A DNA stretch of 64,000 nt from Clostridia bacterium (lineage in GTDB: Bacteria > Bacillota > Clostridia > Christensenellales > Aristaeellaceae), in assembly GCA_017512985.1 (NCBI GenBank), contig JAFWEJ010000001.1, positions 62,001-126,000 of the forward strand, written 5' to 3'. Below are positions 32,281 through 56,655 of the stretch, one piece after another. Positions within the stretch are counted from its first letter, which is position 1; each line of letters begins with the position of its first letter. A program made the position numbers and the translations under genes. The notes under the pieces are model-generated. The model was given only the letters and a program-made list of their open reading frames with translations, had not been told where the DNA came from and did no database searches.

Positions 32281-32312
32281 TTGGACATTTATTGGACATC
32301 CTGTGATATACT
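32281..32312 (+). promoter_or_regulatory. TTGGACA direct-repeat promoter, site 1 (STAS gene)
   Basis: TTGGACA at 32281-32287, spacer TTTA, TTGGACA at 32292-32298, then 8 bp (TCCTGTGA) and -10 TATACT (32307-32312). Both heptamers are perfect, and this is the best -10 of the five sites. The ATG follows 43 bases later. Confidence 0.8.
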
Positions 32313-32354
32313 TTTTTTGTCAGACCGTGGATTAATACAGAGGAGGAACCATAT

Positions 32355-32654
32355 ATGAAGATTGAAAAGAAAGCAAACGGATCCGCGCTGGAGATCGCGC
32401 TGGAAGGCCGCCTGGACACCATGACCGCGCCGGAACTGGAAAAGGAACTGAACGGGATCCTGGGCAGCGCGGACAGTCTGGTGCTGGACTTCGGCAAACT
32501 CGAATACATTTCTTCCGCCGGCCTGCGGGTGCTTCTTTCTGCGCATAAAGCCATGAGCGCCAAAGGCGGCATGAAGGTCACAAAAGTGAATGAGATCGTG
32601 CAGGAAGTGTTCGAGGTGACCGGTTTCGCGGATATTCTGAACATTGAACGCTGA
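32355..32654 (+). CDS. STAS-domain anti-anti-sigma-like protein
   Basis: 99 residues, AGGAGGAACC upstream. A lone STAS domain of the SpoIIAA/RsbV type with the phosphorylation loop YISSAGLRVLL (Ser53/Ser54). In known systems an RsbW-type kinase phosphorylates this serine, a SpoIIE-type phosphatase reverses it, and the unphosphorylated form frees a sigma factor or other target. All three partner types are encoded nearby (32670, 33415, 35174); no sigma factor is. Confidence 0.92.
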   Translation: MKIEKKANGSALEIALEGRLDTMTAPELEKELNGILGSADSLVLDFGKLEYISSAGLRVLLSAHKAMSAKGGMKVTKVNEIVQEVFEVTGFADILNIER

Positions 32655-32669
32655 GAAGGGACAGGCACT

Positions 32670-33269
32670 ATGAAAACAGATGTCATTACTGTTTCCGCCA
32701 AAGGAAAACAGATGGAAAAAGCGCTGGACCAGGTGGAAAAGGTGGCGGCCTACAAGGGACTGTCCCCGAAGAACACCCTGCACCTGCGCCTGCTGACCGA
32801 AGAGATGATGGGCATGATGCGCTCCATCACCGGCGAACCGGAAGGTGAGTTCTGGATCGAGGATCATGACGGTGAATATGCCCTGCATCTGCGGGTAGCC
32901 TCGCGCATGAACCTGGAGAAGCGGGAGCAGCTGCTTTCTGTTTCCGCGTCGGGAAAGAACGAAGCAGCCCGCGGCCTGATGGGACGCATCCGGGAATTCT
33001 TCGACTGGGGCTGTGACGAGGAATACGACGGCCTGTCCCTGGCGCTGATGCCGGACGCGTTTGAGCATTCCACCTCCCCCGTCCTGGACTGGGAATGGTC
33101 CATGCGGCGGTATGAGAACGCGGTCTCCGCGAAGATGGGCCAGGATAACGCAGCCCGGGAGGCCTGGGACGAGCTGGAAAAATCCGTGGTCAAGAATGTG
33201 GCCGACGACGTGAAGGTGTTCATCCGCGGCGGTTATGTCGAGATGACCATCCTGAAGAAAATGGCATGA
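32670..33269 (+). CDS. Degenerate RsbW/HATPase-like protein
   Basis: 199 residues, 15 bases after the STAS gene. The N-terminal 80 residues resemble the HATPase_c fold of anti-sigma kinases (LLTEEMMGMMRSITGE near residues 40-55), but the N-box asparagine expected after EE is replaced and no clear G1 or G2 box is seen. The C-terminal part (about 145-199) is helical with a final strand. It is probably a non-catalytic or divergent partner of the STAS protein. The pairing with a STAS gene is the main support; the fold assignment is by eye. Confidence 0.6.
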   Translation: MKTDVITVSAKGKQMEKALDQVEKVAAYKGLSPKNTLHLRLLTEEMMGMMRSITGEPEGEFWIEDHDGEYALHLRVASRMNLEKREQLLSVSASGKNEAARGLMGRIREFFDWGCDEEYDGLSLALMPDAFEHSTSPVLDWEWSMRRYENAVSAKMGQDNAAREAWDELEKSVVKNVADDVKVFIRGGYVEMTILKKMA

Positions 33270-33306
33270 AATAACAATCAGATACGCCTTTGAAAAGGCG
33301 AAGCAC

Positions 33307-33362
33307 ACAGTATTGTCCGCCAGCTGCGGGACCGGGTCCCGTATGCCGGCGGACAATACTGT
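33307..33362. repeat. Perfect 15-bp inverted repeat with an inner hairpin
   Basis: ACAGTATTGTCCGCC (33307-33321) is the exact complement of GGCGGACAATACTGT (33348-33362). Inside, CGGGAC (33327-33332) pairs with GTCCCG (33336-33341). No T-tract follows on either strand, so it is not an ordinary terminator. It fills the 145-base gap before the MATE-fusion gene together with a small CGCCTTT/AAAGGCG hairpin at 33285-33300. Confidence 0.75.
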
Positions 33363-33414
33363 TCACACCGGCTTGAAACAGCAAACCCTGTAATGAAAGA
33401 AGAGAAACAGCCTT

Positions 33415-35154
33415 ATGATCCGGAAACTGATCCGACGGATGCTGACGGCGCAGATCTTTTCAGCGCTGACTGTATCCTTATGCCTGCTGATCGACAGCAT
33501 CATGATCAGCCGGTTTCTGGGAGAGGAAGCCCTTGCGTCCTACAGCCTGGCTAATCCGCTGCTGCTTTCCATCGGCGCGCTCGGTACGCTGCTGGCCGCC
33601 GGGGTCCAGGTGGTATGCGGCAAGGCGCTGGGCCGCGGATCCCAGGAGGAAGCGAACAGCGGGTACGCGTCCGCTGTCGCGGCTACGGCGGTCATTTCCC
33701 TGGTTTTTGCCGCGGCGGCGATCCTGCTCCGCTCCTTTCTTGCGCGGGCTATGGGGGCGGGGGAAAGCGGAACGCTGTTTGAGATGACCCGGGATTACCT
33801 GGCCGGTTTCAGCATCGGCGCTCCCGGATCCATGGGCGCGCTGGTGCTGATCCCGTTCCTGCAGATGGCCGGGCAGAGCAATCTGCTGATTGCCGCTGTG
33901 CTGGTGATGACGGTGACGGATGTGGCGCTGGACCTGCTGAATGTGCTGGTGTTCAACGGGGGGATGTTCGGCATGGGCCTGGCGTCCGCCCTGAGCTATT
34001 ACGCGGCCATGGCTGTCGCCGGAATCTATCTGCTTTCAAAAAGGAGCATTTTCCGCTTTTCCCGGAAGGGCGTGAAGACACGGATGATCACACGCTTGTT
34101 TGCCAGCGGGATTCCCGCCGGCGTCAACATGCTGGCGTCCGTGGTCCTGGTGTTTGCAATGAACCGCCTGCTGAAAGTCCTGGACGGCAGTATGGCGCTG
34201 GCAGCATATACGGTAATCCAGTCCATCGGCAATACGGCGAACTGTGTTACCACCGGCGTCGGCGGCGTGTCGCTGACGCTCTGCGGTATCTTTTTCCATG
34301 AGGAGGACCGGTCCGCGCTGCGGGAAACCGTAAGGCGGCTTTGCGTATCCGGCGTCCTGCTGGGGTTGGGCATGGGCCTGCTTTTGCTGGTATGCGCGCC
34401 GGTGTTCATCAGCGTGTTCATTCCGGATGCCGGAAGGACGCAGGATCTTGCGGTGCTGGGCCTGCGGCTGTTTGCGGCCGGGATGATTCCCTGCTGTGTC
34501 AATAACGCGATGAAATACGCCTGGCAGGCGACGGGAAGGGCCGGGCTGACAGAGATTATCTCCGCGCTGGAAGGCGCGGTATTCCCGGTGCTGGCTGCCT
34601 TTGTCCTCAGCCGGTTCATGAAGACCGGCGGCGCGCTGCTGGCGTTTGCGGCGGGAGAACTGCTGACGCTGGCCGCCATCGGCCTCCTGGTCCGGAAGAT
34701 CAGCGGGAAAGCCCCGTGGAAGGACGGCGCGTTTCTGCTGCTGAAGAAGGATTTCGGCGCGAAGCCGGAAGAGACCATGGAGACCGGCATTGCCTGCATG
34801 GAAGACGTGGCGAGGGCGGCACGGCAGGCGGAGTCGTTCTGCCTGCGGCACGGGCAGGACGCCCGCGTCAGCAGCCACATCGCGCTGTGCATAGAGGAGA
34901 TGGCAGGCAACGTTATCCGGTACGGGTTTCAGGACGGAAAGGCGCATCACCTGTCCGTGCTGATCCTGAACAAACAGGACCGGTGGGTTCTGCGGTTCCG
35001 GGACGACTGCCGGGCGTTCGATCCGGTCCGTTACATGCCTGCGGACGCGGAGGATGCGCTGGGGATCCGGCTGGTTCGGGGCCTCGTGCGGGATGTGTAT
35101 TATACCTATTCCATGAACCTGAACAATCTGGCGCTGATCCTGAAAAAGGAATGA
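33415..35154 (+). CDS. MATE-family transporter fused to an RsbW-like ATPase domain
   Basis: 579 residues. Residues 1-430 are a MATE (NorM/DinF-like) antiporter with twelve hydrophobic helices. Residues 450-579 form a HATPase_c_2 domain of the anti-sigma kinase type: N-box IEEMAGNVIRYG (Glu494-Glu495, Asn499), G1 box FRDDCRAFDP (Asp530-531) and G2-like GIRLVRGL (550-557). The frame is continuous, with no frameshift between the parts. MATE pumps export cationic drugs or metabolites with Na+ or H+; RsbW-type domains bind ATP and phosphorylate or hold STAS proteins. The fusion suggests transport or its sensing state is tied to the STAS switch at 32355. The start has a weak ribosome binding site. 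Confidence 0.88.
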   Translation: MIRKLIRRMLTAQIFSALTVSLCLLIDSIMISRFLGEEALASYSLANPLLLSIGALGTLLAAGVQVVCGKALGRGSQEEANSGYASAVAATAVISLVFAAAAILLRSFLARAMGAGESGTLFEMTRDYLAGFSIGAPGSMGALVLIPFLQMAGQSNLLIAAVLVMTVTDVALDLLNVLVFNGGMFGMGLASALSYYAAMAVAGIYLLSKRSIFRFSRKGVKTRMITRLFASGIPAGVNMLASVVLVFAMNRLLKVLDGSMALAAYTVIQSIGNTANCVTTGVGGVSLTLCGIFFHEEDRSALRETVRRLCVSGVLLGLGMGLLLLVCAPVFISVFIPDAGRTQDLAVLGLRLFAAGMIPCCVNNAMKYAWQATGRAGLTEIISALEGAVFPVLAAFVLSRFMKTGGALLAFAAGELLTLAAIGLLVRKISGKAPWKDGAFLLLKKDFGAKPEETMETGIACMEDVARAARQAESFCLRHGQDARVSSHIALCIEEMAGNVIRYGFQDGKAHHLSVLILNKQDRWVLRFRDDCRAFDPVRYMPADAEDALGIRLVRGLVRDVYYTYSMNLNNLALILKKE

Positions 35155-35173
35155 TCCGGAGGTGATTGACCTG

Positions 35174-36817
35174 TTGAAACTGCTGAAACAGCATGCGGCC
35201 GTAAAAAGCATCGGCGGAATTGTGCTGCTGCTTCTGGTGTTTTTTGCCACGGTCAGCCTGATCGGCTACAACAGTTTTACGGAGGCGCTCCTGTCCCAGT
35301 ATTCGGAAGGGGCGTTCCTGACGGCTGAGACGGCGGCCCGGCGGCTGGACGCGGACAGAATGGAGGAATACGCGCAGAGCGGAGGCACCACGCCGGAGTA
35401 TCTTGAGGCCTGGAATGAAATGGACGAGCTCTGCAATTCCACCGGCGCGACGTTCATCTATGTCATTCAGCCGGATCGAAGCGATTACGCCCACATTACC
35501 TTCCTCTTTTCCACGATTGACCACGACAGCAGATATACCAAATACGATTTCGGATATGTACGCGATACGACCAACGACGAATACCGGCAGAAATACCGCG
35601 CGCTGTATGAACTGGAAGCGGATCGTGAACTGCTGATCCGCGACCGGGGATATATTGAGACCGATCCCCATATTACCGCGATGATCGGGCTGAAAGGCGC
35701 TGACGGGCAGGTGAAGGCCATTCTCTGCGTCCAGCGGCAGATGGACGTGCTGGCCACCGCGCGGAAGAAATACCTCAGCAAGATCGTTCTGGCGCTGATC
35801 ATTCTGGTCCTGCTTGTAATCCTGGGACAGAGCGCGTTCCTTCACCGTACGCTCCTGCAGCCGCTGAAGCAGATTTCGGACGAGGCAAAGCGCTTTTCCA
35901 AAGAGAATGTGAAAGCGGAGAAAAAGCTGCAGGATACCATCCGGAACCGGGACGAGATCGGACACCTGGCTGCCTCCATCGACAAAATGGAGGACCGGAT
36001 CCAGAATTATATCGAATCAATCACGCAGATCACGGCCGAAAAGGAAAGGATCAACACGGAGCTGGCGCTGGCGACGCGGATTCAGGCCGATATGCTGCCG
36101 CATGTTTTTCCGCCGTTCCCGGACCGGAACGAATTTGACCTGTATGCCAGCATGGATCCCGCCCGGGAAGTGGGCGGCGACTTCTATGATTATTTTCTGG
36201 TGGATGACGACCACCTGTGCATGGTCATGGCGGACGTGAGCGGGAAAGGCGTTCCCGCGGCGCTGTTTATGATGGCGTCCATGATCCTCCTGCGGAACAA
36301 CGCCATGCTGGGAAAATCTCCCGCGGAGATCCTGACAGATGTGAATGCCGCGGTCTGCGCGAACAACCGGGAGGAAATGTTTGTCACCGTATGGCTGGGC
36401 ATCCTGGAGATTTCCACCGGCAGGCTGACGGCGTCGAACGCCGGGCATGAGTATCCGGTCCTGATGCGGGCCGGCGGGGAGTTTGAACTGTATAAGGACA
36501 GGCACGGATTTGTAATCGGCGGGATGGAGGGGATCCGCTACAAACAGTATGAACTGCAGATCAATCCGGGTGACAGGCTGTTCCTGTATACAGACGGCGT
36601 ACCGGAAGCGACGGACGCGGACAAGGAACTGTTCGGCACGGAGCGGATGATCCAGGCGCTGAATGAGCATAAAGACAGGCGGCCGGAAGAGGTGCTGAAC
36701 GGCGTCCGCCGGGCGGTGGACGGCTTTGTGAAGGAAGAGGAACAGTTTGACGATCTGACCATGCTCTGTCTGGCATACAGGGGAAGCGCGGATGATATAT
36801 GTCTGAAAGATGAATAA
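35174..36817 (+). CDS. Membrane SpoIIE-family protein phosphatase with extracellular sensor and HAMP
   Basis: 547 residues from TTG 35174 with GGAGGTGA upstream; a GTG at 35162 would add four residues but lies in that site. One helix (about 15-33), an extracellular dCache-like sensor region of about 160 residues, a second helix (about 208-227), a HAMP segment, a coiled coil, then a PP2C/SpoIIE domain with metal-binding acidic motifs VGGDFYDYF, ADVSGKG, YTDGVPEA and a final DDLTML. It should dephosphorylate a STAS protein, most likely the product of 32355, in response to an extracellular signal. It follows the MATE fusion by 19 bases. Confidence 0.93.
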   Translation: MKLLKQHAAVKSIGGIVLLLLVFFATVSLIGYNSFTEALLSQYSEGAFLTAETAARRLDADRMEEYAQSGGTTPEYLEAWNEMDELCNSTGATFIYVIQPDRSDYAHITFLFSTIDHDSRYTKYDFGYVRDTTNDEYRQKYRALYELEADRELLIRDRGYIETDPHITAMIGLKGADGQVKAILCVQRQMDVLATARKKYLSKIVLALIILVLLVILGQSAFLHRTLLQPLKQISDEAKRFSKENVKAEKKLQDTIRNRDEIGHLAASIDKMEDRIQNYIESITQITAEKERINTELALATRIQADMLPHVFPPFPDRNEFDLYASMDPAREVGGDFYDYFLVDDDHLCMVMADVSGKGVPAALFMMASMILLRNNAMLGKSPAEILTDVNAAVCANNREEMFVTVWLGILEISTGRLTASNAGHEYPVLMRAGGEFELYKDRHGFVIGGMEGIRYKQYELQINPGDRLFLYTDGVPEATDADKELFGTERMIQALNEHKDRRPEEVLNGVRRAVDGFVKEEEQFDDLTMLCLAYRGSADDICLKDE

Positions 36818-36834
36818 AACGGAGGCGGATTACC

Positions 36835-38133
36835 TTGAAAAGGATCTTTGCGATTCTGCTGGCTGTCACCTGTTTTCTGTACTGCTGCCCGGCAACCGCG
36901 GAACAGTCTTCATACACGCTGGACCGGGTTGTGATCCTGAGCCGGCATAATATCCGGTCGCCGCTGTCCGGGAGCGGTTCCCTGCTGGGGGATATCACGC
37001 CCCATGAGTGGTTTGAATGGACGTCCAGGTCCGGCGAACTCTCCCTGCGCGGCGCGGTGTCGGAAACGATGATGGGACAGTATTTCCGCCTCTGGCTGGA
37101 GCAGGAAGGCCTGATTCCGGAAAACTGGCGGCCGGAAGAGGGCGCGGTCCGCTTTTATGCGAACGCCAAGCAGCGGACGCTGGCGACGGCAAAGTATTTT
37201 TCCGCCGGACTCCTGCCTGTGGCGGATGTCCCGGTGGAGAGCCATGCGGAATACGACGCCATGGATCCTGTGTTTGAGCCTTCCCTGAACTTTGTTACGG
37301 ATGAGTATGTCCGGGACGCTGTGGAGCAGATCTCATCAATGGGTGGAGAAGCCGGTCTGGACGGGATTCTTGCGAACCTGAACGACGCTGTCTCGCTGGT
37401 GATGGACGTCGCGGATATCGAACAGAGTGAAGCTTATCAGTCCGGACAGTACGGTGATCTGCGGTCCGGGGAAACAACCCTGACACTGGAAGAAGGCAAA
37501 GAGCCAAAAATGACCGGGCCGATCAAAACCGCCACCAGTGTGGCGGACGCCCTGACTTTCCAGTATTACGAAGAAACAGATGATAAGAAGGCGGCCTTCG
37601 GCCATGATCTTTCGGAAGCCGACTGGCAGTTGATCCATACGGTTGTGGACGTCTACGGGGAGATGCTCTTCAGCGCACCGCTGGTATCGGTCAACGTGGC
37701 ACATCCCCTGCTGGAGGAGATCCGTTCTGAGATGACTGCGGAAAACCGGAAGTTCTCTTTCCTCTGCGGCCACGACTCAAATGTCTGCAGTGTGCTTGCC
37801 GCAATGAACGCGGAAGAATACCTGCTGCCGGAGACTGTGGAACAGCATACGCCGATCGGCGTAAAACTGGTGTTTGAACGCTGGGTGGCTGAAGGCGGCG
37901 AAGCGTTCTGGAAGGTCAGCATGGTCTATCAGAGCACAGCGCAGCTCCGGGCACTGGAACAGCTGACGCTGGAAAACCCGCCGGTGAAATATCCGATCCG
38001 GTTTGAGGGAATTGCGGTCAACGACGACGGGATGATCCCGGAAGCCGATATGTTCACCCTGCTGGATACAGCGATCGACGCCTATGACGATCTGCTGGAG
38101 GAATACACGGCAGAAGAGGAAAAAGCAGCATAA
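36835..38133 (+). CDS. Secreted histidine acid phosphatase, glucose-1-phosphatase (Agp)-like
   Basis: 432 residues from TTG 36835 with GGAGGCGG upstream. Signal peptide of about 22 residues. The active-site motif reads RHNIRSP (37-43) as in E. coli Agp (RHN rather than the RHG of phytases), and the proton-donor HD lies in CGHDSN near residue 311. Agp-type enzymes release phosphate from sugar phosphates or phytate outside the cell. It is 17 bases after the SpoIIE gene, suggesting the same transcript. Agp homologues are common in enterobacteria but unusual in Gram-positives. Confidence 0.85.
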   Translation: MKRIFAILLAVTCFLYCCPATAEQSSYTLDRVVILSRHNIRSPLSGSGSLLGDITPHEWFEWTSRSGELSLRGAVSETMMGQYFRLWLEQEGLIPENWRPEEGAVRFYANAKQRTLATAKYFSAGLLPVADVPVESHAEYDAMDPVFEPSLNFVTDEYVRDAVEQISSMGGEAGLDGILANLNDAVSLVMDVADIEQSEAYQSGQYGDLRSGETTLTLEEGKEPKMTGPIKTATSVADALTFQYYEETDDKKAAFGHDLSEADWQLIHTVVDVYGEMLFSAPLVSVNVAHPLLEEIRSEMTAENRKFSFLCGHDSNVCSVLAAMNAEEYLLPETVEQHTPIGVKLVFERWVAEGGEAFWKVSMVYQSTAQLRALEQLTLENPPVKYPIRFEGIAVNDDGMIPEADMFTLLDTAIDAYDDLLEEYTAEEEKAA

Positions 38134-38191
38134 AGAAACAGGCGGAAAGAGAAAAGGAATACAGAATAGCTTATTGAAGGGGGGAACAGAT

Positions 38192-39475: not shown

Positions 39476-39515
39476 CGCGGGAATGATTCCGAATATCTGA
39501 TCAGGAGAGGTGCGC

Positions 39516-40184: not shown

Positions 40185-40202
40185 CCGGAAGGAGAAGGAA
40201 AG

Positions 40203-41084: not shown

Positions 41085-41135
41085 CGGAATCCGCGGGGCC
41101 GCACATGGCCGCGATACGGAGCGGAGGAATGTATA

Positions 41136-42356: not shown

Positions 42357-42368
42357 GGAGACAGGCCT

Positions 42369-42998: not shown

Positions 42999-43008
42999 AG
43001 AAATCATA

Positions 43009-43040
43009 CTGGACATCTGTTGGACAGCGGATGGCATAAT
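43009..43040 (+). promoter_or_regulatory. TTGGACA direct-repeat promoter, site 2 (HAD phosphatase)
   Basis: CTGGACA at 43009-43015, spacer TCTG, TTGGACA at 43020-43026, 8 bp (GCGGATGG), -10 CATAAT (43035-43040). The ATG follows 38 bases later. Confidence 0.75.
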
Positions 43041-43077
43041 TCTGTCTGCAAAATACAGAGCATGGAGGATATGGAAA

Positions 43078-44175
43078 ATGAAACGGATCCTTGCTGTACT
43101 GGCAATCCTGGTGATGGCGGCCGCGTTGATCGCGGCGCCGGGTTTCGCGGAAGAAGAGGAAGCGGCGTTCGCATGCTGGAATCCGGAAGCGCCGGCGCTG
43201 AAGGCGCTGATCGAATATATGGAAGATGTGACGGATGAAGCTTCCCCGAACTATATCCCGGAGGCGGACCGGATCGCGACCTTCGACATGGATGGTACGC
43301 TGTGCGGCGAACTGTATCCCACCTACCTGGAATATTACCTGCTGGCCCGGAGGATCTTCTGTGACCCGTCCTATCAGCCGGACGAGGAAATGCTGGAGTT
43401 CGGCCGGATCCTGCGGGACCACGCGCTGGACAAGTCCTTCCCGGACGGCATGGACGTTCTGCACGGCGAGCACGCAGCCCGGGCCTATGCCGGCATGACG
43501 CTGACGGAGTTCGCGGACTTTGTGACAAACCAGCTGGTGCGGGATGTGGACGGCTTTGAAGGAATGACCTATGCCGACACATTCTATCTTCCGATGATCG
43601 AGGTCGTGGAATACCTGCAGGAGAATGATTTCAAGGTCTATGTCTGCAGCGGCAGCGACCGGTTTATCTGCCGTACGTTCATAGAGGGCATCCTGGAGAT
43701 CCCGTATGAGCAGATTATCGGCATGGACGTGGATATTGAGGCGACGAACGAAGACGGTGCGGACGGGCTGAAGTATGTATACACCAGCGAGGACAATATT
43801 GTCCGCACGGACCGGCTGCTGATCAAAAACCTGAAGATGAACAAGGTCAAGGCCATCGTGAAGGAGATCGGCCGCCAGCCAGTGCTGTCCTTCGGAAACA
43901 GCAGCGGTGACGTCAGCATGCACAACTATACGATTTTCAACAACCGGTATAAGAGCGCGGCCTTCATGCTGATCGCCGACGACGAAGAACGGGATTACGG
44001 AAATACGGAGAAGGTGCAGCCGCTGAAGGAAAAATGGGAAGAGAGCGGCTATCACGTGATCTCCATGAAGGATGATTTCCGGACGATTTACGGTGAGGAC
44101 GTGGTGAAGACAGGGACGTTCCACTGGCTGGAGGAATTCGCGGATGAAGGGACGGCCGCGCCGGCAGCGGAATAA
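43078..44175 (+). CDS. Secreted HAD-superfamily phosphatase
   Basis: 365 residues with a signal peptide (MKR start, cleavage near GFAEE, residue 25). HAD motifs: DMDGT near residue 69, SGSDR near 192, and GNSSGDVSM near 275, so the fold and metal site look complete (HAD subfamily IB-like). Because it is exported, it probably removes phosphate from extracellular substrates. It is driven by a TTGGACA repeat promoter and thus co-regulated with other surface genes. The C-terminus is Glu/Ala rich. Confidence 0.87.
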   Translation: MKRILAVLAILVMAAALIAAPGFAEEEEAAFACWNPEAPALKALIEYMEDVTDEASPNYIPEADRIATFDMDGTLCGELYPTYLEYYLLARRIFCDPSYQPDEEMLEFGRILRDHALDKSFPDGMDVLHGEHAARAYAGMTLTEFADFVTNQLVRDVDGFEGMTYADTFYLPMIEVVEYLQENDFKVYVCSGSDRFICRTFIEGILEIPYEQIIGMDVDIEATNEDGADGLKYVYTSEDNIVRTDRLLIKNLKMNKVKAIVKEIGRQPVLSFGNSSGDVSMHNYTIFNNRYKSAAFMLIADDEERDYGNTEKVQPLKEKWEESGYHVISMKDDFRTIYGEDVVKTGTFHWLEEFADEGTAAPAAE

Positions 44176-44247: not shown

Positions 44248-45423
44248 GTGCGCACAGAGAAAGACGGCAACCGTTTGATCGTGTATCCGGAGGGAAGGAT
44301 CGACGCGTCGAACGCTCCGGATCTGCTGAAGGAGCTGGAGGCTGTCCGGGCTGAAAACGACGGCTGCGAGCTGGAAGTGGACGCAGGCGGGCTGGAATAT
44401 ATCTCAAGCGCGGGTCTGCGGGTGCTGCTTCAGCTGACCAGATCCCAGGACAGGCCTCTGACCGTGGTCAATGTCAGGCCTGCTGTATACGAAATCCTGG
44501 AGACAACCGGGTTTACGGAATTGCTCCGTGTGAAGAAGGCATACCGGAGTATCAGTGTGGACGGGTGCGAAGTGATCGGCAGGGGCTTTTACGGAACGAT
44601 CTACCGCATCGACGACGAAACGATTGTAAAGGTATACAAGGGGAAAGACAGCATTCCCATGATCGAAAATGAAATACGCATGGCCAGGACAGCGTTTCTG
44701 GGCGGGATTCCTACGGCGATCGCTTATGACATCGTGCAGGTCGGCGGGGACTATGGCTCCGTGTTCGAAATGCTCAGGGCGTCGACTTATATGGAATGGA
44801 TCAGGAACGCCCCGGAGGACAGGGAGCAGATCGTGGACAGCTATGCGCGTTTTCTGCGGCAGGTGAACGGTACCGTGCTGGACGGCAAGACGCTTCCCTC
44901 TGCAAAGCAGCGGTTCCTGGACTGCCTGGAGGGAGCAAAAGGTATTCTTCCCGCGGATCAGTACGGACGCCTGAAGCAACTGATCGAGGCTGTCCCGGAG
45001 AGCATGAACGCGGTGCACGGGGACTGTCATCTGAAAAACGTCATGCAGGTCAATGGAGAGCCGATGCTTATCGATATGGATACGCTGTCTGTCGGGAACG
45101 CGGTATTTGAACTGGCCTGTATCTTCTTTGGAATCATGGCGTTTGAAGAGGATGAGCCGGGAAATACGATGAGGTTCTACGGGATTTCCCATGAAACGGC
45201 CGAATATGTATGGAACCGGACAATGTGTATATACTTCGGGGACCGGGACGAAGAAACGCTTTCTGACCTCAGGAACCGGGTCATGCTCCTGGGATGGCTG
45301 TACTTCCTGTACCGCATGCAGACGGATTTTAAGGGGAAGCCGTTGAGCGATATCCGCACAGAGCATGCCTGCGGACACATCAAAGAGCTCCTCGGGAAAG
45401 TCAGGGAGCTCGCTGTTTACTGA
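44248..45423 (+). CDS. STAS domain fused to an APH-like kinase
   Basis: 391 residues from GTG 44248 with GGAGGAGG upstream. Residues 1-95 are a STAS domain whose phosphorylation loop YISSAGLRVLLQ (Ser53/Ser54) nearly equals that of the protein at 32355. The rest has an aminoglycoside-phosphotransferase/choline-kinase-like fold: glycine-rich loop GRGFYGTIYRID, lysine-containing IVKVYK, catalytic loop VHGDCHLKN and metal site LIDMDT. The fused kinase could phosphorylate a small molecule or, speculatively, the STAS domain itself. It resembles APH-like families seen in rumen bacteria. It lies 72 bases after the HAD gene. Confidence 0.85.
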   Translation: MRTEKDGNRLIVYPEGRIDASNAPDLLKELEAVRAENDGCELEVDAGGLEYISSAGLRVLLQLTRSQDRPLTVVNVRPAVYEILETTGFTELLRVKKAYRSISVDGCEVIGRGFYGTIYRIDDETIVKVYKGKDSIPMIENEIRMARTAFLGGIPTAIAYDIVQVGGDYGSVFEMLRASTYMEWIRNAPEDREQIVDSYARFLRQVNGTVLDGKTLPSAKQRFLDCLEGAKGILPADQYGRLKQLIEAVPESMNAVHGDCHLKNVMQVNGEPMLIDMDTLSVGNAVFELACIFFGIMAFEEDEPGNTMRFYGISHETAEYVWNRTMCIYFGDRDEETLSDLRNRVMLLGWLYFLYRMQTDFKGKPLSDIRTEHACGHIKELLGKVRELAVY

Positions 45424-45445
45424 TGAGTGAAGAAGGAATGGAAAG

Positions 45446-46891: not shown

Positions 46892-46925
46892 CTGAGGCCA
46901 TAAGCCGTCAGAGAAGGGAAGAAAC

Positions 46926-51260: not shown

Positions 51261-51278
51261 ACGCGTAAACAAAACCGT

Positions 51279-51307
51279 CGCTGCAGGGACTTCCTGCAGC
51301 GTTTTTT
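51279..51307 (+). terminator. Terminator of the ABC exporter operon
   Basis: CGCTGCAGG (51279-51287) and CCTGCAGCG (51293-51301) form a 9-bp stem, then TTTTTT. It lies just upstream of TTGGACA site 3. Confidence 0.92.
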
Positions 51308-51313
51308 CGGATA

Positions 51314-51345
51314 CTGGACATTTATTGGACAAAGGATGGTAGAGT
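51314..51345 (+). promoter_or_regulatory. TTGGACA direct-repeat promoter, site 3 (SH3b/PEGY pair)
   Basis: CTGGACA at 51314-51320, spacer TTTA, TTGGACA at 51325-51331, 8 bp (AAGGATGG), weak -10 TAGAGT (51340-51345). The ATG is 64 bases on. The poor -10 suggests dependence on an activator. Confidence 0.78.
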
Positions 51346-51408
51346 GTTGCACGGACCATGGGAAGTGACCATGGATCATGAAGCAACGTAAGAAAGGATG
51401 AAATCCGT

Positions 51409-52005
51409 ATGAAAAAAGCAATCAGTCTGATACTTGCCATGATGATGCTGGTGCTGCTTGCGTCCGCGGCCATGGCGGAAAGCCAGGGAACAGATTATTA
51501 TGTCTATACCAAGAACGGAAAGGTTCTGAAAGTCCGTTCCAGCATGAGCACAAAGGATGACAGCAACGTCATCGGCACGCTGGCATATGGCAAAAAGGTT
51601 ATCATTTACGGCGTCCGGGACGGCTGGGCAATGATCGACTACGGCAACACGACCGGCTATGTCATGTACCGCTTCCTGGTGAAAGAGAAGCCCGCTCCCT
51701 ATAAGCCTTCCGAATCCACGGGGAAGAAAACCGCCGACGCCACCAAGGACGCCTCCACGGTCGCCCAGTTGAACGCGCTGATTTCCTCCGCGGTGTTTGT
51801 GGATCCCTACACGGTGACCGTCCGGCCTGTCCGGGCCAGCGGCTGGGTTTATATGCGCTGGTTCCCGAGCCAGAGTGCGGAAACAATGGCCACCTTCGGC
51901 GCCAACCATGAGCTGATGGTCATCGCCGAGCTGAAGGACTGGTATCAGGTGAGCGATCCGTCAACCGGCAAAGTCGGTTATATCTACAAGAGTTACGTGC
52001 AGTAA
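51409..52005 (+). CDS. Secreted protein with two SH3b domains
   Basis: 198 residues from ATG 51409 with AAAGGATGA upstream. Signal peptide (MKKAISL, cleavage near AMAES, residue 23). Two bacterial SH3 domains: about 25-85 (VYTKNGKVLKVRSSMS to GYVMYRFLV) and 130-198 (TVTVRPVRASGWVYMRW to VGYIYKSYVQ), joined by a Lys/Thr-rich linker. The second domain is very close to that of the protein at 60553. SH3b domains typically bind cell-wall peptides. Followed 28 bases later by the PEGY-domain gene. Confidence 0.88.
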   Translation: MKKAISLILAMMMLVLLASAAMAESQGTDYYVYTKNGKVLKVRSSMSTKDDSNVIGTLAYGKKVIIYGVRDGWAMIDYGNTTGYVMYRFLVKEKPAPYKPSESTGKKTADATKDASTVAQLNALISSAVFVDPYTVTVRPVRASGWVYMRWFPSQSAETMATFGANHELMVIAELKDWYQVSDPSTGKVGYIYKSYVQ

Positions 52006-52033
52006 GCCGAAACAGAGAAGGAGATGAATGACG

Positions 52034-52561
52034 ATGAAGAAATTCACAGCACTGGCGCTGAGCCTGATCATGATCCTGTGCGCGGTCTGCGCGTTTGCCG
52101 AAGACACTGGAAAAACTGAAATGGGAACGCTGAAAGTGGGCGAAGCATTCAGCATTCAGAGCAGAATGCCGGAGGGCTACACTTATATGCCTGTCAAAGC
52201 AACAGAACTGAACATGGTCGGAATCCTCTCCGCCGGGGCAGGCAGGCCGGTTGTAACGATTTCCATCGCGTACAATGAAGAGTATGCGGATACGGAACGC
52301 TTCAACGATGTGGACGAAGCCGTTGTGGAAGAGATTCGGGAGAGCTTCCGCGAAGCGGATCCGGAGGTCGTCTTTGAGGATCTGGAAACCGCCTACGGCA
52401 CCCGGCTGCTGAAGGTGGCCGGAGACGGCTTTGTGGATATTTATACGGTTTATAAGGGTTACGAACTGGAGTTCGTCATGAGCGGCAGCACGATTGAAGC
52501 CGCTGACGTTCAGATGCTGGTGGACTTTATCAGCGATATGGATTTTGTCGGTGTGGAATAA
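52034..52561 (+). CDS. Secreted single PEGY-domain protein
   Basis: 175 residues. ATG 52034 was preferred since AAGGAG lies 10 bases upstream; ATG 52028 is possible. Signal peptide (cleavage near AFAED, residue 23) and one domain of about 145 residues, unassigned to any known family. It shares with 57443 and 61216: a start GTLKV, the phrase PEGY, SIAYNEEYADTERFND, YGTRLLKV, YKGYELEFV, and an end SDMDF. Named here the PEGY domain after its core. It is co-transcribed with the SH3b gene upstream; elsewhere both domains are on one protein. Confidence 0.8.
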   Translation: MKKFTALALSLIMILCAVCAFAEDTGKTEMGTLKVGEAFSIQSRMPEGYTYMPVKATELNMVGILSAGAGRPVVTISIAYNEEYADTERFNDVDEAVVEEIRESFREADPEVVFEDLETAYGTRLLKVAGDGFVDIYTVYKGYELEFVMSGSTIEAADVQMLVDFISDMDFVGVE

Positions 52562-52578
52562 CAACACATTGAATGATC

Positions 52579-52613
52579 AAAACCGGGATCCCTTTTCCCG
52601 GAGGTGCCGGTTT
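52579..52613 (+). terminator. Possible terminator after the PEGY gene
   Basis: AAACCGG and CCGGTTT flank a loop containing TCCCTTTTCCCGG. Stem only 7 bp and a poor T-tract. Confidence 0.35.
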
Positions 52614-52718
52614 GTTCCCGGAAACAGTGCAGTATGCCGCGGAGCAGGACGCATAAACAGAAGCGAATCATATTGCTGAAGAGATATTTGCTGATGATTC
52701 CGGAAAGGAGGGACGGCT

Positions 52719-53099
52719 GTGCTGAAGGTGATCTGTGTGGATGATGAAAAGCTGATGCTTCAGCATCTGGTCTCCCTTTGTGAAAAAACGGCGGATGTTG
52801 CCGAGACCCATGGCTTTGACAGGGCAAAGAAGGCCCTGGACTGGATGAAAGACCATCCCTGCGACCTGGCCCTGCTGGACATTAACCTGCCGGACATGAA
52901 CGGGATCACGCTGGCAAAACGGATTCAGGAATTATGCCCGAAAACGGATATTGTTTTTGTGACCGGATATCCCCAGTATGCTGTGGATTCCTGGGCTGTC
53001 CATCCAAAGGGATATCTCCTGAAACCGATCACAAAAAAAGACCTGCAGGAGAAACTGGATTATATTCTGTCCGTTCGTTCTCTCCGCAGGCAGGCATAA
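52719..53099 (+). CDS. Receiver-only response regulator
   Basis: 126 residues from GTG 52719 with AAAGGAGG upstream. One receiver domain with acidic pair Asp8-Asp9, phosphorylation Asp54 (ALLDINLPDMNG), Thr82 and Lys102. No output domain. It is closely similar to the receiver of the SARP regulator at 53104, sharing the phrase ICVDDEKL and the segment YLLKP, so one may be a duplicate of the other. It might compete for phosphate from the adjacent kinase or act by protein contact. It converges on 53104 with only 4 bases between stops. Confidence 0.88.
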   Translation: MLKVICVDDEKLMLQHLVSLCEKTADVAETHGFDRAKKALDWMKDHPCDLALLDINLPDMNGITLAKRIQELCPKTDIVFVTGYPQYAVDSWAVHPKGYLLKPITKKDLQEKLDYILSVRSLRRQA

Positions 53100-53103
53100 A
53101 AAA

Positions 53104-53904
53104 TCAGTACCGATCGATCTTCCGGCTGAGGAAGCTTTCGGTTTCCTCCGCCCAGGAATAGGCACTCATGTATTCGCCCCGGTAGGCATTGACTGCGTCC
53201 GCGTCGCCGCTGAAAAAGCGCCAGGCGTCGCAGGAAATCAGTTCCGGAACGATCCGCAGGGTGCCTCTTTTCATTTCAAGGATCTCACTGATTTTGTGTT
53301 CTTCCAGCGTATCCCGGAGGCTGCGGATGATCACGTCGAACTGTTTCTGCATAGGCCGGTCATACATCCTGTCCTCATACAGCATGGCAAAGGCCTCCGC
53401 CCTGGTGGCGCTTCCGCCCTGGCGGTCGATCAGGTAGGCCAGCAGTTCCTTGCATTTGGCCTGGCGGAAGGTGACAAGTTTCCCGTCTACAAACAGGTCA
53501 AAATTTCCGAAAGTCCGCGCTGTGATATGCGCGTCCGGTGTTTTGCGCTTTCCGGAAAGGGCATAGGCTACTTCCGCGGCCAGTTTTTCTTTGTCCACGG
53601 GTTTAAGCAGATAACCGGAGGCATGCACCTCAAACGCTTTCATCGCGTACTCGGAAAAGCCGGTCAGGAAAATGACGGCCGTGTCCGGCCGGAGTTTTTT
53701 GATCTCCGCCGCGAGAACCAGGCCGTTCATGTCCGGCATGTCAATGTCCAGCAGGGCCAGGTCGGCGTCATTTTCCTTCAGCCAGGCCAGTGCGTCCCGG
53801 GCACGGGTAAAGCCTTCTGCTTCCGTCAGGGGCGGCAGGCTTTGGCAGAGGGAGACCGTGTAATCGGTGATGAGCTTTTCATCGTCCACGCAGATGGCTC
53901 TCAT
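53104..53904 (-). CDS. Response regulator with SARP-type DNA-binding domain
   Basis: 266 residues. ATG 53904 was chosen (AGGAGG upstream; start overlaps the kinase stop by 4 bases, ATGA). Residues 1-118 are a receiver (Asp7-Asp8, Asp53, Thr81, Lys101). Residues 125-220 form an OmpR-like winged helix of the SARP kind (TFGNFDLFVDGK, then FRQAKCKELLAYLIDR), and residues 221-266 are the start of a BTAD-like helical part (CDAWRFF, YRGEYMSAYSWAEE). SARP proteins activate promoters by binding heptamer direct repeats with 11-bp spacing, 8 bp from the -10. Five such sites occur in this window. Confidence 0.9.
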   Translation of the reverse strand: MRAICVDDEKLITDYTVSLCQSLPPLTEAEGFTRARDALAWLKENDADLALLDIDMPDMNGLVLAAEIKKLRPDTAVIFLTGFSEYAMKAFEVHASGYLLKPVDKEKLAAEVAYALSGKRKTPDAHITARTFGNFDLFVDGKLVTFRQAKCKELLAYLIDRQGGSATRAEAFAMLYEDRMYDRPMQKQFDVIIRSLRDTLEEHKISEILEMKRGTLRIVPELISCDAWRFFSGDADAVNAYRGEYMSAYSWAEETESFLSRKIDRY

Positions 53905-55163
53905 ATTTTTTCCTCCTGATTCTCTTTCCTGAGCGGGATCCGGATGATGACCGTCGTACCTTCTCCGACCCGGCTGTCTATGAGCATGGTGCCTCCGCAC
54001 ATGCTTTCAATCCGGCTTTGTACATTCCGCAGGCCGACATGGCTCCTGTCGGCCGCCCTGACAGCCTCCGCGTCAAAGCCGACGCCGTTGTCCCGGATCA
54101 GCACCTCGTGACAGCTGCCCAGCTGCAGGGTAATTACATCGATGATTCCTTCATCCCGGATCCGGACGCCGTGGCGGATGGCGTTTTCCACTATGGGCTG
54201 AAGCGTCAGGGGCGGCAGGGAGAAATCGCTGTCCTGGATATCGTACCGTACATGGATGTTGGGGAAACGGGTTTCCTCAATCTGCACATATGCTTTGGTG
54301 TGTTCCAGTTCCTTTTCGAAGGAAATCAGGCCGGGCTCATCCAGGGAGGACAGGTTCCGGCGCAGGTAGGAGCTGAAATTCCCGGTGACTTCGGCGGCTT
54401 TCTCCGGATCCGTGTGGCAGAGCACCTGGATCGTGGAGAGGGTGTTGTACAGGAAATGGGGCTGGATCTGTGACATCATGATCTTAATCCGCTGCTGGGC
54501 TTTCAGGTCTTCCTCGTGGTCCTGTACAAACTTCAGATGCAGCCAGATGTAATAGAATACGCAGCTGAACGACATGGCGACCGTCAGGTAGGCGATGGGC
54601 TGGCGGCTTTCCGTTGCCTGTCCGTCCATCCAGATGGAGACGAGGATCATGACGACCGTCAGGATGGGGATAATGGTTTCCAGAATGTGCTCGTGACGGT
54701 GCTCATGAACGGACAGGTACAGCATATAGATCAGCAGCACAATGCTGACGCTCAGGCAGCAATACCGGAGGGGACCGCCGTGCCAGTGATTGGCGTCGTC
54801 GATCCAGAAGCACAGCTGGGAAAACAGGGCGGTCATGTGGACCAGGGCGTTGATCCCCACCAGGATCCAGGCGGGCAGGAAACGCTTTTTAGGCGCCAGG
54901 ATGGAATAGACCAGCACGATGATTGCCGGGCGTACCGCGTAACCGTAAATGGAGGAGATCGTCCGGGCCAGCCATCTCGTCTGTCCGGCGGCCAGCGTGT
55001 CTTCTATATAATTCTGGAGGATCAGGGAAACACACAGGCCGATGATCAGCAGAAGCGTTTTTTTATGCCTGCGGCGGATATAGGGATCGTTGAGAATGGA
55101 GATTATCAGACCGATCAGCAGGAACAGGATGAAAGCGATAAAGAAGATTTTTTCCCCTGCCAT
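53901..55163 (-). CDS. 7TM sensor histidine kinase (LytS/AgrC-like, HisKA_PF06580 type)
   Basis: 420 residues from ATG 55163, with AAAGGA at a good 8-base distance; ATG 55169 (two residues longer) is too close to it. Seven membrane helices (about 8-23, 36-50, 72-89, 96-116, 133-151, 160-178, 190-208), then phosphoacceptor His236 in QIQPHFLYNTLSTI and a HATPase domain (ENAIRHG, DNGVGFD, GLRNVQSR). No extracellular domain, so the ligand is probably read in the membrane. Coupled to the SARP regulator downstream. Confidence 0.93.
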   Translation of the reverse strand: MAGEKIFFIAFILFLLIGLIISILNDPYIRRRHKKTLLLIIGLCVSLILQNYIEDTLAAGQTRWLARTISSIYGYAVRPAIIVLVYSILAPKKRFLPAWILVGINALVHMTALFSQLCFWIDDANHWHGGPLRYCCLSVSIVLLIYMLYLSVHEHRHEHILETIIPILTVVMILVSIWMDGQATESRQPIAYLTVAMSFSCVFYYIWLHLKFVQDHEEDLKAQQRIKIMMSQIQPHFLYNTLSTIQVLCHTDPEKAAEVTGNFSSYLRRNLSSLDEPGLISFEKELEHTKAYVQIEETRFPNIHVRYDIQDSDFSLPPLTLQPIVENAIRHGVRIRDEGIIDVITLQLGSCHEVLIRDNGVGFDAEAVRAADRSHVGLRNVQSRIESMCGGTMLIDSRVGEGTTVIIRIPLRKENQEEKI

Positions 55164-55266
55164 GGCCATTTTCCTTTCCGAACGATTGTTTTGTTATGTT
55201 TCAGTATAGCATACACAGGGACGGCAGAAAAGATGCCGGACCGCTGATCAAACTGTCCTGACACAG

Positions 55267-55298
55267 AAAGACATTTATTGGACAGCGGATGATACAGT
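55267..55298 (+). promoter_or_regulatory. TTGGACA direct-repeat promoter, site 4 (L,D-transpeptidase)
   Basis: Degenerate AAAGACA at 55267-55273, spacer TTTA, perfect TTGGACA at 55278-55284, 8 bp (GCGGATGA), -10 TACAGT (55293-55298). It is located in the divergent gap next to the kinase gene. ATG follows 50 bases later. Confidence 0.72.
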
Positions 55299-55347
55299 TA
55301 TTTCTGCGGACGAAGAATCTGCAGCATGAAAAAGGAGAAATGGGACA

Positions 55348-56499
55348 ATGAAAAAACTGATTGCCGTTCTGTGCGCGCTGCTTCTGATCTGCCCGGCGGT
55401 TTTTGCTTTTGCTGAAGAAGAAACCGGATCCATGCCTGTTTCGGCGGAAACGTTTGAGGGGGAATGGCAGTGTGACAGGGCGACGGCTTCCGTGTATTGG
55501 GAAGAAGAAGGCTTTAAGGTGCTGATTACCTGGGGAAGCAGTGCCTGGGAGCACACAGAATGGCAGTACAGCTGCTATTATCACGAGGAGGACAACAAGC
55601 TGGTCGCCGTTCCCTTCGGGATCCGCACGGAATATGTGTATGGCGATGACGGGGAGCTTGTCTCCGCAACAGACATATATGACGACGGAGAAGCTGTTTT
55701 TTCCCTGGATGAGAAAGGATATCTGATCTGGCAGGATCAGAAGGATAATGCGGGCGAAGGAATGCGGTTTGAGAAACTCCCCGATGAGCCTGCCGCGGAA
55801 GAAACCATCCCTTCTTCAGAAGGCACTCTGTCTGAGCAGGCTGAAGGCCTGCATGTGAATATTCAGCATGTGACGGACTCGCCGGCGTGGGTAGCGAATC
55901 TGCCCGCTGCTCAGGAAGCCGGCCAGCTGTTTGTTGTGGCTGCCATGGGAATGGACAAAACCACAGCCTATATCACCATGCATCAGAAGGACGCGGACGG
56001 AAACTGGAAACAGATCCTGTCTACCCCCGGGTTTGTGGGCAAAAACGGCCTTTGCGCGGATGCGGACCATAAAGAAGGCTGTGCCCAGACGCCCATCGGT
56101 GTTTATCACTTCAACAAAGCCTTTGGCATTGCGCCCGATCCCGGATGCGCGCTGCCTTATATCCAGGTGGACGAAAACACTTACTGGTCAGGTGATCCGG
56201 ACCGGCAGTATAACGAGATGGTGGATATCCGGGAAGTGCCGGACCTGGTGATGGACGACAGCGAACACATTGTGGATTACGAATACCAGTATCAATACTG
56301 CCTCAATATCAGCTTCAACGAGGAAGGCACACCCGGGCGCGGCTCCGCCATCTTTCTGCATTGCTTTGGCCCTGCCAAGCCTTATACCGGGGGCTGTGTC
56401 GCGGTGCCTGAAAATATCATGCGGATGATCATGCGGCAGGTGTCTCCAGAATGCGCGGTGATCATTGACACCTTTGAGAATCTGGGCGGCAGCTTCTGA
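55348..56499 (+). CDS. Secreted L,D-transpeptidase (YkuD-like) with N-terminal beta domain
   Basis: 383 residues with signal peptide (cleavage near AFAEE, residue 22). Residues about 30-145 form an uncharacterised strand-rich domain. From about 165 on is a YkuD-type L,D-transpeptidase with catalytic motif HCFGPAKPYTGGC (His338, Cys350). Such enzymes cross-link peptidoglycan stem peptides or attach proteins to them. The active-site spacing is intact. It is divergent from the HK/RR operon and has TTGGACA site 4, so it is a prime candidate target of that system. Confidence 0.85.
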   Translation: MKKLIAVLCALLLICPAVFAFAEEETGSMPVSAETFEGEWQCDRATASVYWEEEGFKVLITWGSSAWEHTEWQYSCYYHEEDNKLVAVPFGIRTEYVYGDDGELVSATDIYDDGEAVFSLDEKGYLIWQDQKDNAGEGMRFEKLPDEPAAEETIPSSEGTLSEQAEGLHVNIQHVTDSPAWVANLPAAQEAGQLFVVAAMGMDKTTAYITMHQKDADGNWKQILSTPGFVGKNGLCADADHKEGCAQTPIGVYHFNKAFGIAPDPGCALPYIQVDENTYWSGDPDRQYNEMVDIREVPDLVMDDSEHIVDYEYQYQYCLNISFNEEGTPGRGSAIFLHCFGPAKPYTGGCVAVPENIMRMIMRQVSPECAVIIDTFENLGGSF

Positions 56500-56623
56500 C
56501 CGGCAGGTGCAGGCATTCAGGAACAGCCGCGTTTATACTGCAGGGAGCCGGATTCTTTGCCATGCCGGATAAAAACAGAAATAGATAAACAGTATGCGAA
56601 CCGGCTCAATTGTCCGTTCTGTA

Positions 56624-56655
56624 CTGGACATTTATTGGACAACGGATAGTAAAGT
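56624..56655 (+). promoter_or_regulatory. TTGGACA direct-repeat promoter, site 5 (6TM protein)
   Basis: CTGGACA at 56624-56630, spacer TTTA, TTGGACA at 56635-56641, 8 bp (ACGGATAG), -10 TAAAGT (56650-56655). The ATG is 71 bases on. No other feature was seen in the 56500-56623 stretch. Confidence 0.78.

Follow-up and report, generated by a model that had tools for sequence, protein, structure and literature searches.

Operators of SARP activators are described in passages of PMC10936776 and PMC10972967 as direct repeats with an 11-bp period, with 8 bp between the 3' repeat and the -10 element and with the repeats overlapping a poor -35 element. The PHO box, according to a passage of PMC4415409, consists of two 7-nt repeats 4 nt apart, which are bound in tandem with contact to sigma. 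In a 64,000-nucleotide stretch of clostridial DNA (the window), five boxes have a layout that resembles both: as far as those passages describe them, SARP operators in Streptomyces (AfsR with its afs box, ActII-4, DnrI) share the 11-bp period and the 8-bp phase to the -10 element, and the PHO box shares the 7+4+7 frame of tandem 11-bp direct repeats. The boxes are very probably operators of a kinase/response regulator (RR) pair encoded at 53104-55169, judging by co-occurrence and position. This proposal, with the RR at 53104-53904 in the midst of the boxes, adds to an earlier note on the boxes, which named no regulator. Among the open-access papers searched, we found none containing the four box strings, and none on a clostridial box/RR system among the matches listed.

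The window RR has an OmpR-type DNA-binding domain in common with SARPs (a weak match, below cut-off), and its combination of receiver and OmpR-type domain in common with PhoB. It differs from SARPs, whose DNA-binding domain is N-terminal and followed by a BTA domain, in having the receiver at the N-terminus, the DNA-binding domain at the C-terminus and no recognised BTAD; it would be controlled through its receiver, and its heptamer is TTGGACA. SARPs control secondary-metabolite clusters; within the window the candidate targets are genes for envelope proteins and a switch, and in some relatives the predicted targets also include RiPP-type peptide genes. From PhoB-type systems it is set apart by a different heptamer, a PF06580 kinase and a C-terminal tail, and no phosphate-uptake family is among the 25 commonest target families listed (of 55 Pfam families for 82 first targets). 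A PF06580 kinase beside an RR is also seen in LytS/LytTR-type systems, but the window RR has a Trans_reg_C-type winged helix as its output instead of LytTR, and the operator period is 11 bp; LytTR sites are about 21 bp apart, centre to centre.

Five boxes share one geometry

Exact YTGGACA-N4-TTGGACA-N8-hexamer sequences can be read directly at 32281, 43009, 51314 and 56624 (Table 1). The earlier note described five near-identical elements with (C/T)TGGACA as first heptamer, and this holds for four of them; the exception, at 55267, has AAAGACA as its upstream heptamer, with 3 mismatches. The spacing, the downstream heptamer and the position of the -10 element are kept in all five, as that note had said, and it was also right that N4 is TTTA in four boxes (TCTG at 43009) and that all five are intergenic and on the coding strand. 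A TG precedes the -10 hexamer (TGN, extended -10) in four of the five, with TA at 56624. Read in this way, the putative operator is a pair of 11-bp direct repeats (TTTR-YTGGACA) whose 3' end is 8 bp from a mostly extended -10 element. A terminator-like stem (51279-51301) lies immediately 5' of box 3.

Table 1. Boxes, proposed regulator genes and genes behind the boxes. Distances run from the box end to the ATG of the first gene.
Feature	Position	Strand	Description	Distance (nt)	Matrix score
Box 1	32281..32312	+	TTGGACA-TTTA-TTGGACA-N8-TATACT; TG extended -10; 5' of STAS gene	42	45.6
STAS	32355-32654	+	behind box 1
199-aa protein	32670-33269	+	behind box 1; no Pfam match
MATE fused to HATPase_c_2	33415-35154	+	behind box 1
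SpoIIE with HAMP	35162-36817	+	behind box 1
Box 2	43009..43040	+	CTGGACA-TCTG-TTGGACA-N8-CATAAT; 5' of HAD gene	37	41.5
HAD-type protein	43078-44175	+	behind box 2; just below Pfam cut-off
STAS-APH fusion	44248-45423	+	behind box 2, after HAD gene
Box 3	51314..51345	+	CTGGACA-TTTA-TTGGACA-N8-TAGAGT; 5' of SH3b gene	63	39.4
SH3b protein	51409-52005	+	behind box 3
177-aa protein	52028-52561	+	behind box 3; no Pfam match
Lone receiver domain	52719..53099	+	126 aa; 3' of box 3 genes; conserved in genome G031
RR, proposed cognate activator	53104..53904	-	266 aa; receiver, OmpR-type winged helix, C-terminal tail of ~50 aa
Sensor kinase	53901..55169	-	422 aa; PF06580 + HATPase_c; overlaps RR start, same operon
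Box 4	55267..55298	+	AAAGACA (degenerate upstream repeat), intact TTTATTGGACA-N8-TACAGT; 5' of L,D-transpeptidase gene	49	18.6
YkuD-type L,D-transpeptidase	55348..56499	+	behind box 4; at Pfam cut-off
Box 5	56624..56655	+	CTGGACA-TTTA-TTGGACA-N8-TAAAGT; 5' of 6TM gene	70	42.0
6TM protein	56726..57373	+	behind box 5; weak DUF308
SH3b protein	57443-58570	+	next after 6TM gene of box 5

The box repeats are genuine and exceed what chance would give. At up to one mismatch, the genome that contains the window (2.63 Mb) has 5 matches, namely four in the window and one on contig C16, and all are intergenic; the random scatter over coding and non-coding DNA that would have spoken against the motif is absent. 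Two mismatches give 7 further matches, which alone carry no meaning, because the total of 12 compares with 17 for the reversed control. We discarded a loose pattern (up to 3 mismatches) that was only weakly above chance (13 in the window against 7.5 expected, a number reached in 4 of 100 shuffles), and also a window-derived 29-mer, which is circular and has only 3 window sites. A scoring matrix trained solely on other genomes, when run over the window, ranks the five boxes first (Table 1) with the next position at 3.3, and the best score of this matrix in 20 Markov-resampled windows is 10.7. Among 393 genomes of the class (at least 90% complete, its own included), the full box matches only in its own genome, and the reversed control matches once in each of 6 genomes. 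The full box is thus a rare signature, from which regulons and hidden peptide clusters can be read out.

The box accompanies one family of response regulators

We picked 80 loci purely by similarity to the RR and then searched them for boxes with up to one mismatch. There are 88 boxes in 67 of the loci; the reversed pattern has none, and neither does any of ten draws of shuffled heptamers (nine of them different). The box is absent from 13 of the 80 loci at this stringency and from 11 at up to two mismatches, where the reversed control gives 4. Almost all of the sites (85/88, compared to 11% of random positions) are intergenic, as are all 47 sites listed in the window's own genome and the relatives' loci. 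In the 88 sites the two repeats are equally conserved, and the TTTR spacers likewise. Because a site had to contain both heptamers to be included, independent evidence of conservation comes from the spacers and TTTR only.

Without any demand for a -10 element, TANNNT occurs at +8 in 74 of the 88 sites (runner-up offset 16), and 57 of the 88 have the TG of an extended -10. The 8-bp phase rests on this count and not on repeat scans, which favour a period of 11 (98 matches at N8, where periods 8-10 and 12-16 have 9-34) but score N7 to N10 alike (89-107), because the extended repeats permit shifted registers. Two details of the earlier note did not extend to these sites. GGAT is present in four of the five 8-bp spacers of the window, but it is a local feature, since it is unconserved across the 88 sites of other genomes. 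Weak -10 boxes are not a family-wide trait either: the profile of the 88 sites is T.92 A.93 T.53 A.52 A.62 T.93.

In other lineages of the RR the frame is kept with different heptamers (GTGGACA, GGGGACA, TTACGCT and GTCAGMA). On a tree of 37 RRs the nine heptamer classes require 8 changes, the minimum possible, which none of 500 label shuffles reach (lowest 9), though the test is weak in that four classes consist of one row each and two pairs of RRs are near-identical. These natural pairs of regulator and heptamer are available for learning winged-helix specificity.

Among 90 genomes of the family, 15 have both box and RR, 3 the box only, 7 the RR only and 65 neither (Fisher P = 2.3 x 10−9, which is too small because the genomes are related). 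This comparison covered the subfamily of the window RR, one of the 10 Trans_reg_C matches in the genome, with an RR threshold (E ≤ 1e-40) that was chosen after the matches had been seen. Box and RR are at most 3 kb apart on contigs of eight relatives (G004, G017, G018, G031, G035, G037, G044 and G060), and relatives of the kinase adjoin the RR in other genomes. Of the 22 genomes with a close RR, 7 gave no box match in the first scan. Looser repeat scans of these showed a TTGGACA box lacking TG in G055 and other heptamers in G003, G005, G013 and G027; the candidate in G087 is unconvincing, and no box was found in G039. G042 (68% complete) has boxes and no RR match, G010 has only a piece of an RR at a contig end, and the match in G076 looks like chance.

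The proposed regulator is a predicted OmpR-type protein

Response_reg matches all of 37 RR rows and Trans_reg_C matches 34 (E ≤ 1), and Trans_reg_C matches all 22 domain rows (E ≤ 0.01); the window RR itself matches Trans_reg_C with E = 0.0013 and 20.5 bits, below the cut-off of 26.2. BTAD is not one of the 24 families matched by the 37 RRs (E ≤ 1), nor is LytTR among the Pfam matches of the RR. The receiver is nearest to BtsR and LytR in NCBIfam, far under their cut-offs. For the full-length RR, AF2 gives a confident model (pLDDT 90.3, pTM 0.58); a VIA look with it was dominated by receivers among the 50 matches listed, and the absence of EmbR and AfsR from these carries no weight. Profile searches with the C-terminal domain gave ArlR-type chains as best matches (9e-5 with alignment A2, 0.0017 with A4) and EmbR only at 0.2-0.3. 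We classify the RR, by predicted domains, as OmpR-type with no recognised BTA domain, and its C-terminal tail may be a reduced BTA-like domain. The matrix scan found no box ahead of the window's own kinase/RR operon.

A model for activation, and its alternatives

By analogy with the systems in the passages of PMC10936776 and PMC4415409, we suggest a sigma-capture mechanism. The membrane kinase would sense a signal and the RR would become phosphorylated. Two RR winged-helix domains would then occupy about -42 to -21, replacing the -35 element; each would sit on one of the 11-bp repeats, in head-to-tail order and spaced by one helical turn. The bound RRs would hold sigma region 4, so that housekeeping polymerase could open the -10 element 8 bp downstream. 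Expression of the envelope proteins (SH3b, L,D-transpeptidase, HAD, 6TM) would start together with that of the STAS/HATPase/SpoIIE switch. In relatives, RR or kinase genes would also be under the same regulon. The earlier suggestion of a regulon of activator-dependent promoters lacking a proper -35 gains support from the sequence evidence: no sigma-70-like -35/-10 pair with 16-18 bp spacing exists at any of the five window sites.

That absence also makes it very unlikely that these are housekeeping promoters in which the upstream TGGACA is the -35 element and the second copy is incidental. TGGACA does match TTGACA at 5 of 6 positions, and the -10 elements are sigma-70-like, frequently with TG, but the spacer would be a poor 19 bp. 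The second repeat and the TTTR spacers are conserved (in sites preselected for both heptamers), the alternative heptamers retain the frame while losing their likeness to a -35 element, and the boxes accompany one RR family. Repression by the RR, whose sites overlap the -35 region and fall within the expected polymerase footprint, has only a slim chance of being correct: there is no recognisable -35/-10 pair left to block at the five sites or at the C16 copy, and the constant 8-bp distance to the -10 element is that of SARP activators in the passage of PMC10936776.

We give a similarly small probability to binding by another OmpR/PhoB-type regulator, such as a PhoP orthologue, with the link to the window RR being secondary. 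PHO boxes likewise have two 7-nt repeats 4 nt apart (in the passage of PMC4415409), and 9 of the genome's 10 Trans_reg_C matches are above cut-off. Against this, the box co-occurs with the subfamily of the window RR and is co-located with it, and on that co-location PhoB/PhoP was set aside as the binder; RR paralogues have their own adjacent heptamers–for example, GTGGACA is near the C6 paralogue–and RR genes themselves lie behind boxes. That the boxes are functionless, recently duplicated DNA (a local repeat or mobile element) is hardly credible. Five copies lie inside 24 kb, four sharing GGAT, but the flanks outside the box are dissimilar by eye, and conservation across many genomes extends to the box but not to positions 18-22 behind it.

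Activation by the window-type RR remains our preferred reading, and it ties an operator to its likely regulator from sequence alone in little-studied gut Clostridia. We offer a wider picture tentatively, while leaning against it: a large two-component family of gut and rumen Clostridia might use SARP-type promoter capture without the full SARP protein, through a lineage-specific heptamer in a fixed 7+4+7+8 extended -10 frame. One phospho-signal would turn on envelope proteins, a STAS/SpoIIE switch, an ECF sigma operon or RiPP-type peptide clusters, and the lone receiver of the same regulon would be a phosphate sink or brake. If this is true, SARP-type activation is neither actinobacterial nor bound to antibiotic clusters. 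The link between box and RR makes it testable whether SARP-like promoter capture under two-component control occurs beyond Actinobacteria.

Genes behind the boxes

The genes behind box 1 (32355..36817, + strand) form a predicted partner-switching-type module. All three domain types of such modules (STAS anti-anti-sigma, HATPase anti-sigma and SpoIIE/PP2C) are present, but the HATPase forms a fusion with a MATE transporter, and there is no sigma factor among the genes scanned behind box 1. Similar genes are also behind boxes in relatives. Each of the five target families also turns up in first position behind other boxes (STAS 9, SH3b 6, HAD 4, YkuD 2 and 6TM 2, of 119 first genes), and RR (16) and kinase (2) genes are first targets elsewhere. 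Relatives of the box 4 target sit behind intact boxes at loci L133 and L172.

The pair of box and RR, as far as gene predictions indicate, recurs in related gut bacteria ahead of genes for surface proteins, signalling switches and small peptides. Genes in the relatives' loci were called with a codon-score caller for GC-rich DNA, checked by its agreement with Pfam-supported genes. The expected enrichment of surface genes is found but is modest: an N-terminal hydrophobic segment is present in 39 of 82 first targets and in 157 of the other 490 genes (P = 0.008). A strict GG-leader pattern shows a small enrichment (3/82 targets, 1/490 others), and in some relatives genes for a Nif11 leader, radical SAM, an NHLP exporter or GG-leaders adjoin the RR or a box.

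The box is associated with loci that carry the response regulator

The earlier note described five copies of a box, YTGGACA-N4-TTGGACA-N8 followed by a -10 hexamer. Read directly, all five sites have the -10 hexamer at the claimed position and orientation, and the start codons lie close behind as described (see table), but only four have the exact form; at box 4 the upstream heptamer is AAAGACA. In a promoter scan, none of the five box places showed a sigma-70-like -35/-10 pair, and a terminator-like stem appeared directly upstream of box 3.

Features in and around the box-containing loci
Feature	Position	Strand	Start codon (nt)	Gene behind box, or content
Box 1	32281	+	42	STAS
Box 2	43009	+	37	HAD
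Box 3	51314	+	63	SH3b
Box 4	55267	+	49	L,D-transpeptidase (YkuD)
Box 5	56624	+	70	6TM
MATE fusion	33415-35154			C-terminal HATPase_c_2
STAS fusion	44248-45423			APH-type phosphotransferase domain
Lone receiver	52719-53099			126 aa
Response regulator (RR)	53104-53904	-		receiver, OmpR-type winged helix, tail
Kinase	53901-55169	-		PF06580, HATPase_c
Own-genome C16 box (at 124506) with downstream stem	G000:C16:124506-124625 (L149:6506-6625)			-10 TATAAA
Boxes in other loci	L124:4816; L129:7495			FDYQKFEGN protein
Small protein beside RR	L206:2320-2601

The box cluster of the window includes a kinase and an RR, the proposed box-binding activator. We scanned an alignment of the RR domain (A2) against genome contigs and took forward the top 80 of 537 relatives, mainly rumen and gut Clostridia MAGs by their record titles; the box played no part in this choice. 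These loci contain 61 boxes with no mismatch (46 loci), 88 at ≤1 (67 loci) and 93 at ≤2 (69 loci), compared to 0, 0 and 4 matches to the reversed pattern; when the heptamers were shuffled ten times, giving nine different versions, there was no match at ≤1 mismatch. When the 88 sites were aligned on the box alone, TANNNT was found at +8 in 74 of them (the next best offset has 16), and TG precedes the -10 in 57. TTTR precedes each heptamer, so the operator is two 11-bp repeats. The sites are intergenic in 85 cases, compared to 11% of random positions, and 82 have a same-strand gene downstream, a median of 60 nt from the -10. A matrix made from them ranks the five window sites above all other window positions. 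In a search of the same loci for any repeated 7-mer (at least 6 of 7) plus a -10, the peak was at period 11, with 98 matches at N8 in 68 of the 80 loci versus 9-34 at other periods; part of the 98 is plainly chance. Within period 11, N7 to N10 score similarly (89-107) because the repeats exceed 7 bases.

Distribution of the box and its proposed regulator among genomes

In the window's own genome (2,626,272 bases, 17 contigs, 89.7% complete), TTGGACA-N4-TTGGACA with at most one mismatch has five matches, four in the window and one on contig C16. Two mismatches add seven, making 12 versus 17 for the reversed control, so such matches count only with independent support. Among 150 genomes including this one, 21 contain YTGGACA-N4-TTGGACA-N5-TG with at most one mismatch (15 of the same genus, 3 from other genera of the family and 3 from other families), and the reversed control matches once in each of 5; matches beyond the family look like chance. 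The most frequent form is CTGGACATTTRTTGGACA. With a stricter pattern that includes the -10, the own genome was the sole match in 393 genomes of the class (≥90% complete, with our genome and one other family member included; reversed control, 6 matches), so within the class this box is a rarity and not a general feature. In a listing of 36 loci (the window and L115-L149, most selected for box or RR), all 47 box sites, 4 of them in the window, lie between genes as called by our own gene caller, and 45 have a same-strand gene start within 400 nt downstream.

Using the C-terminal 139 residues of the RR as a query against 61 genomes and then 53 more, we defined close RRs by E ≤ 1e-40. Combined with the 150-genome box search, this sorts 90 family genomes (G000-G089) into 15 with both box and close RR, 3 with the box only (G042, G076 and G010, the last with a fragment of an RR where a contig ends), 7 with the RR only and 65 with neither (Fisher P = 2.3e-9, which is too small given the relatedness of the genomes and a threshold chosen after the results). 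On 8 contigs of relatives the two are at most 3 kb apart.

Heptamer specificity and proposed mode of action

Near more distant RRs, the repeated-7-mer search picks up different heptamers in an unchanged frame. GTGGACA occurs near the genome's own paralogue on contig C6 (70% identical in the domain), where the box precedes a GGDEF gene, and in G040. Other genomes have GGGGACA (G027), ATGGAAA (G003, G013), TTGGGCA (G005) and TTGGAAK (G027); TTACGCT was found at three loci, GTCAGMA at two and TGACAGT at one, and heptamers known from one locus may be chance matches. A quickly built tree of 37 RRs has 22 rows labelled in nine classes (labels for L057 and L060 came from the 150-genome search and the 36-locus listing). 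The classes need 8 changes, the minimum, whereas none of 500 label shuffles was as low (lowest 9); this test is weak, as four classes are single rows, two pairs have near-identical RRs and the count covers only rows with an assigned box, leaving aside 15.

This diversity bears on one alternative, that TGGACA is an ordinary -35 element. It matches the -35 hexamer at five of six bases, with a 19-bp spacer, but the other heptamers in the same frame speak against it. Activation rather than repression is predicted because the -10 phase is fixed and a -35 is missing. According to PMC10936776, Streptomyces antibiotic regulatory proteins (SARPs) have promoters with direct repeats of period 11 or 22 bp, the 3' repeat 8 bp from the -10, and AfsR forms a side-by-side dimer engaging sigma region 4. 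The PHO box, in the review PMC4415409, is two 7-nt repeats with 4 nt between, later given as two 11-nt repeats. Our boxes have a frame equal to that of the SARPs and similar to that of the PHO box. Unlike SARPs with their BTA activation domain, the RR has no BTA domain recognised in domain-family searches, and its nearest profile match is ArlR. Frame and domain make-up together suggest that it would act at the promoter like a SARP or PhoB, and we class it with OmpR-type response regulators, not SARPs.

Genes behind the boxes

We compared 119 distinct first genes from outside the window to 16 window proteins (BLASTP, E ≤ 1e-6): 51 are similar to one and 68 have no match. The commonest matches are RR (16), STAS (9), SH3b (6) and HAD (4; 35-41% identity). 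There are two each for YkuD, 6TM (78 and 31%), kinase, SpoIIE, HATP-like, MATE (59 and 24%) and DHOD-type, and one each for M15 and receiver. RR-adjacent targets are over-represented because the best 80 loci were selected by RR. Behind box 1 are STAS, MATE/HATPase fusion and SpoIIE genes, which look like a putative partner-switching module; a STAS domain is also fused to a phosphotransferase domain elsewhere in the window. The order in G037 is box-kinase-RR-box-MATE-STAS. In G017, RR, box and STAS genes lie behind AzlC/AzlD, where on the chromosome the window carries only box and STAS genes; relocation or replacement of the RR must therefore have occurred in G017 or the window.

About 50 nt past its -10, with no called gene between, the C16 box is followed by a terminator-like stem of 9 pairs that ends in a T tail. 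The box may drive a candidate small RNA, roughly 75 nt long and CU-rich in its body, which has only partial matches (≤37 bases) in 45 other genomes. The window's lone receiver, a possible phosphate sink, shares 56% identity with a stand-alone receiver of G031; in G004, a second RR that stands behind a box has a receiver 58% identical to it. Larger proteins with a related DNA-binding domain (40-43% identity; open frames of 677-753 aa) occur in same-family genomes (L069-L073, L095, L096).

A small protein family adjoins the RR at L206 and about 20 further places (including L119, L121, L126, L127, L128, L160, L168, L172, L178, L180, L183, L199, L221 and L227). Its proteins often start with a double-glycine leader and share an end resembling W-x-KYVWIEQHGSL; those of L206 and L119 have no Pfam match. 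Near box or RR, L121 has a radical SAM/SPASM gene, L128 a Nif11 leader peptide and L124 NHLP-type export genes (L191 as a partial match), which suggests that RiPP-type clusters may accompany the RR family. At L124 and L129 the box precedes a conserved protein of 64-66 aa, followed at L124 by an ECF sigma factor gene.
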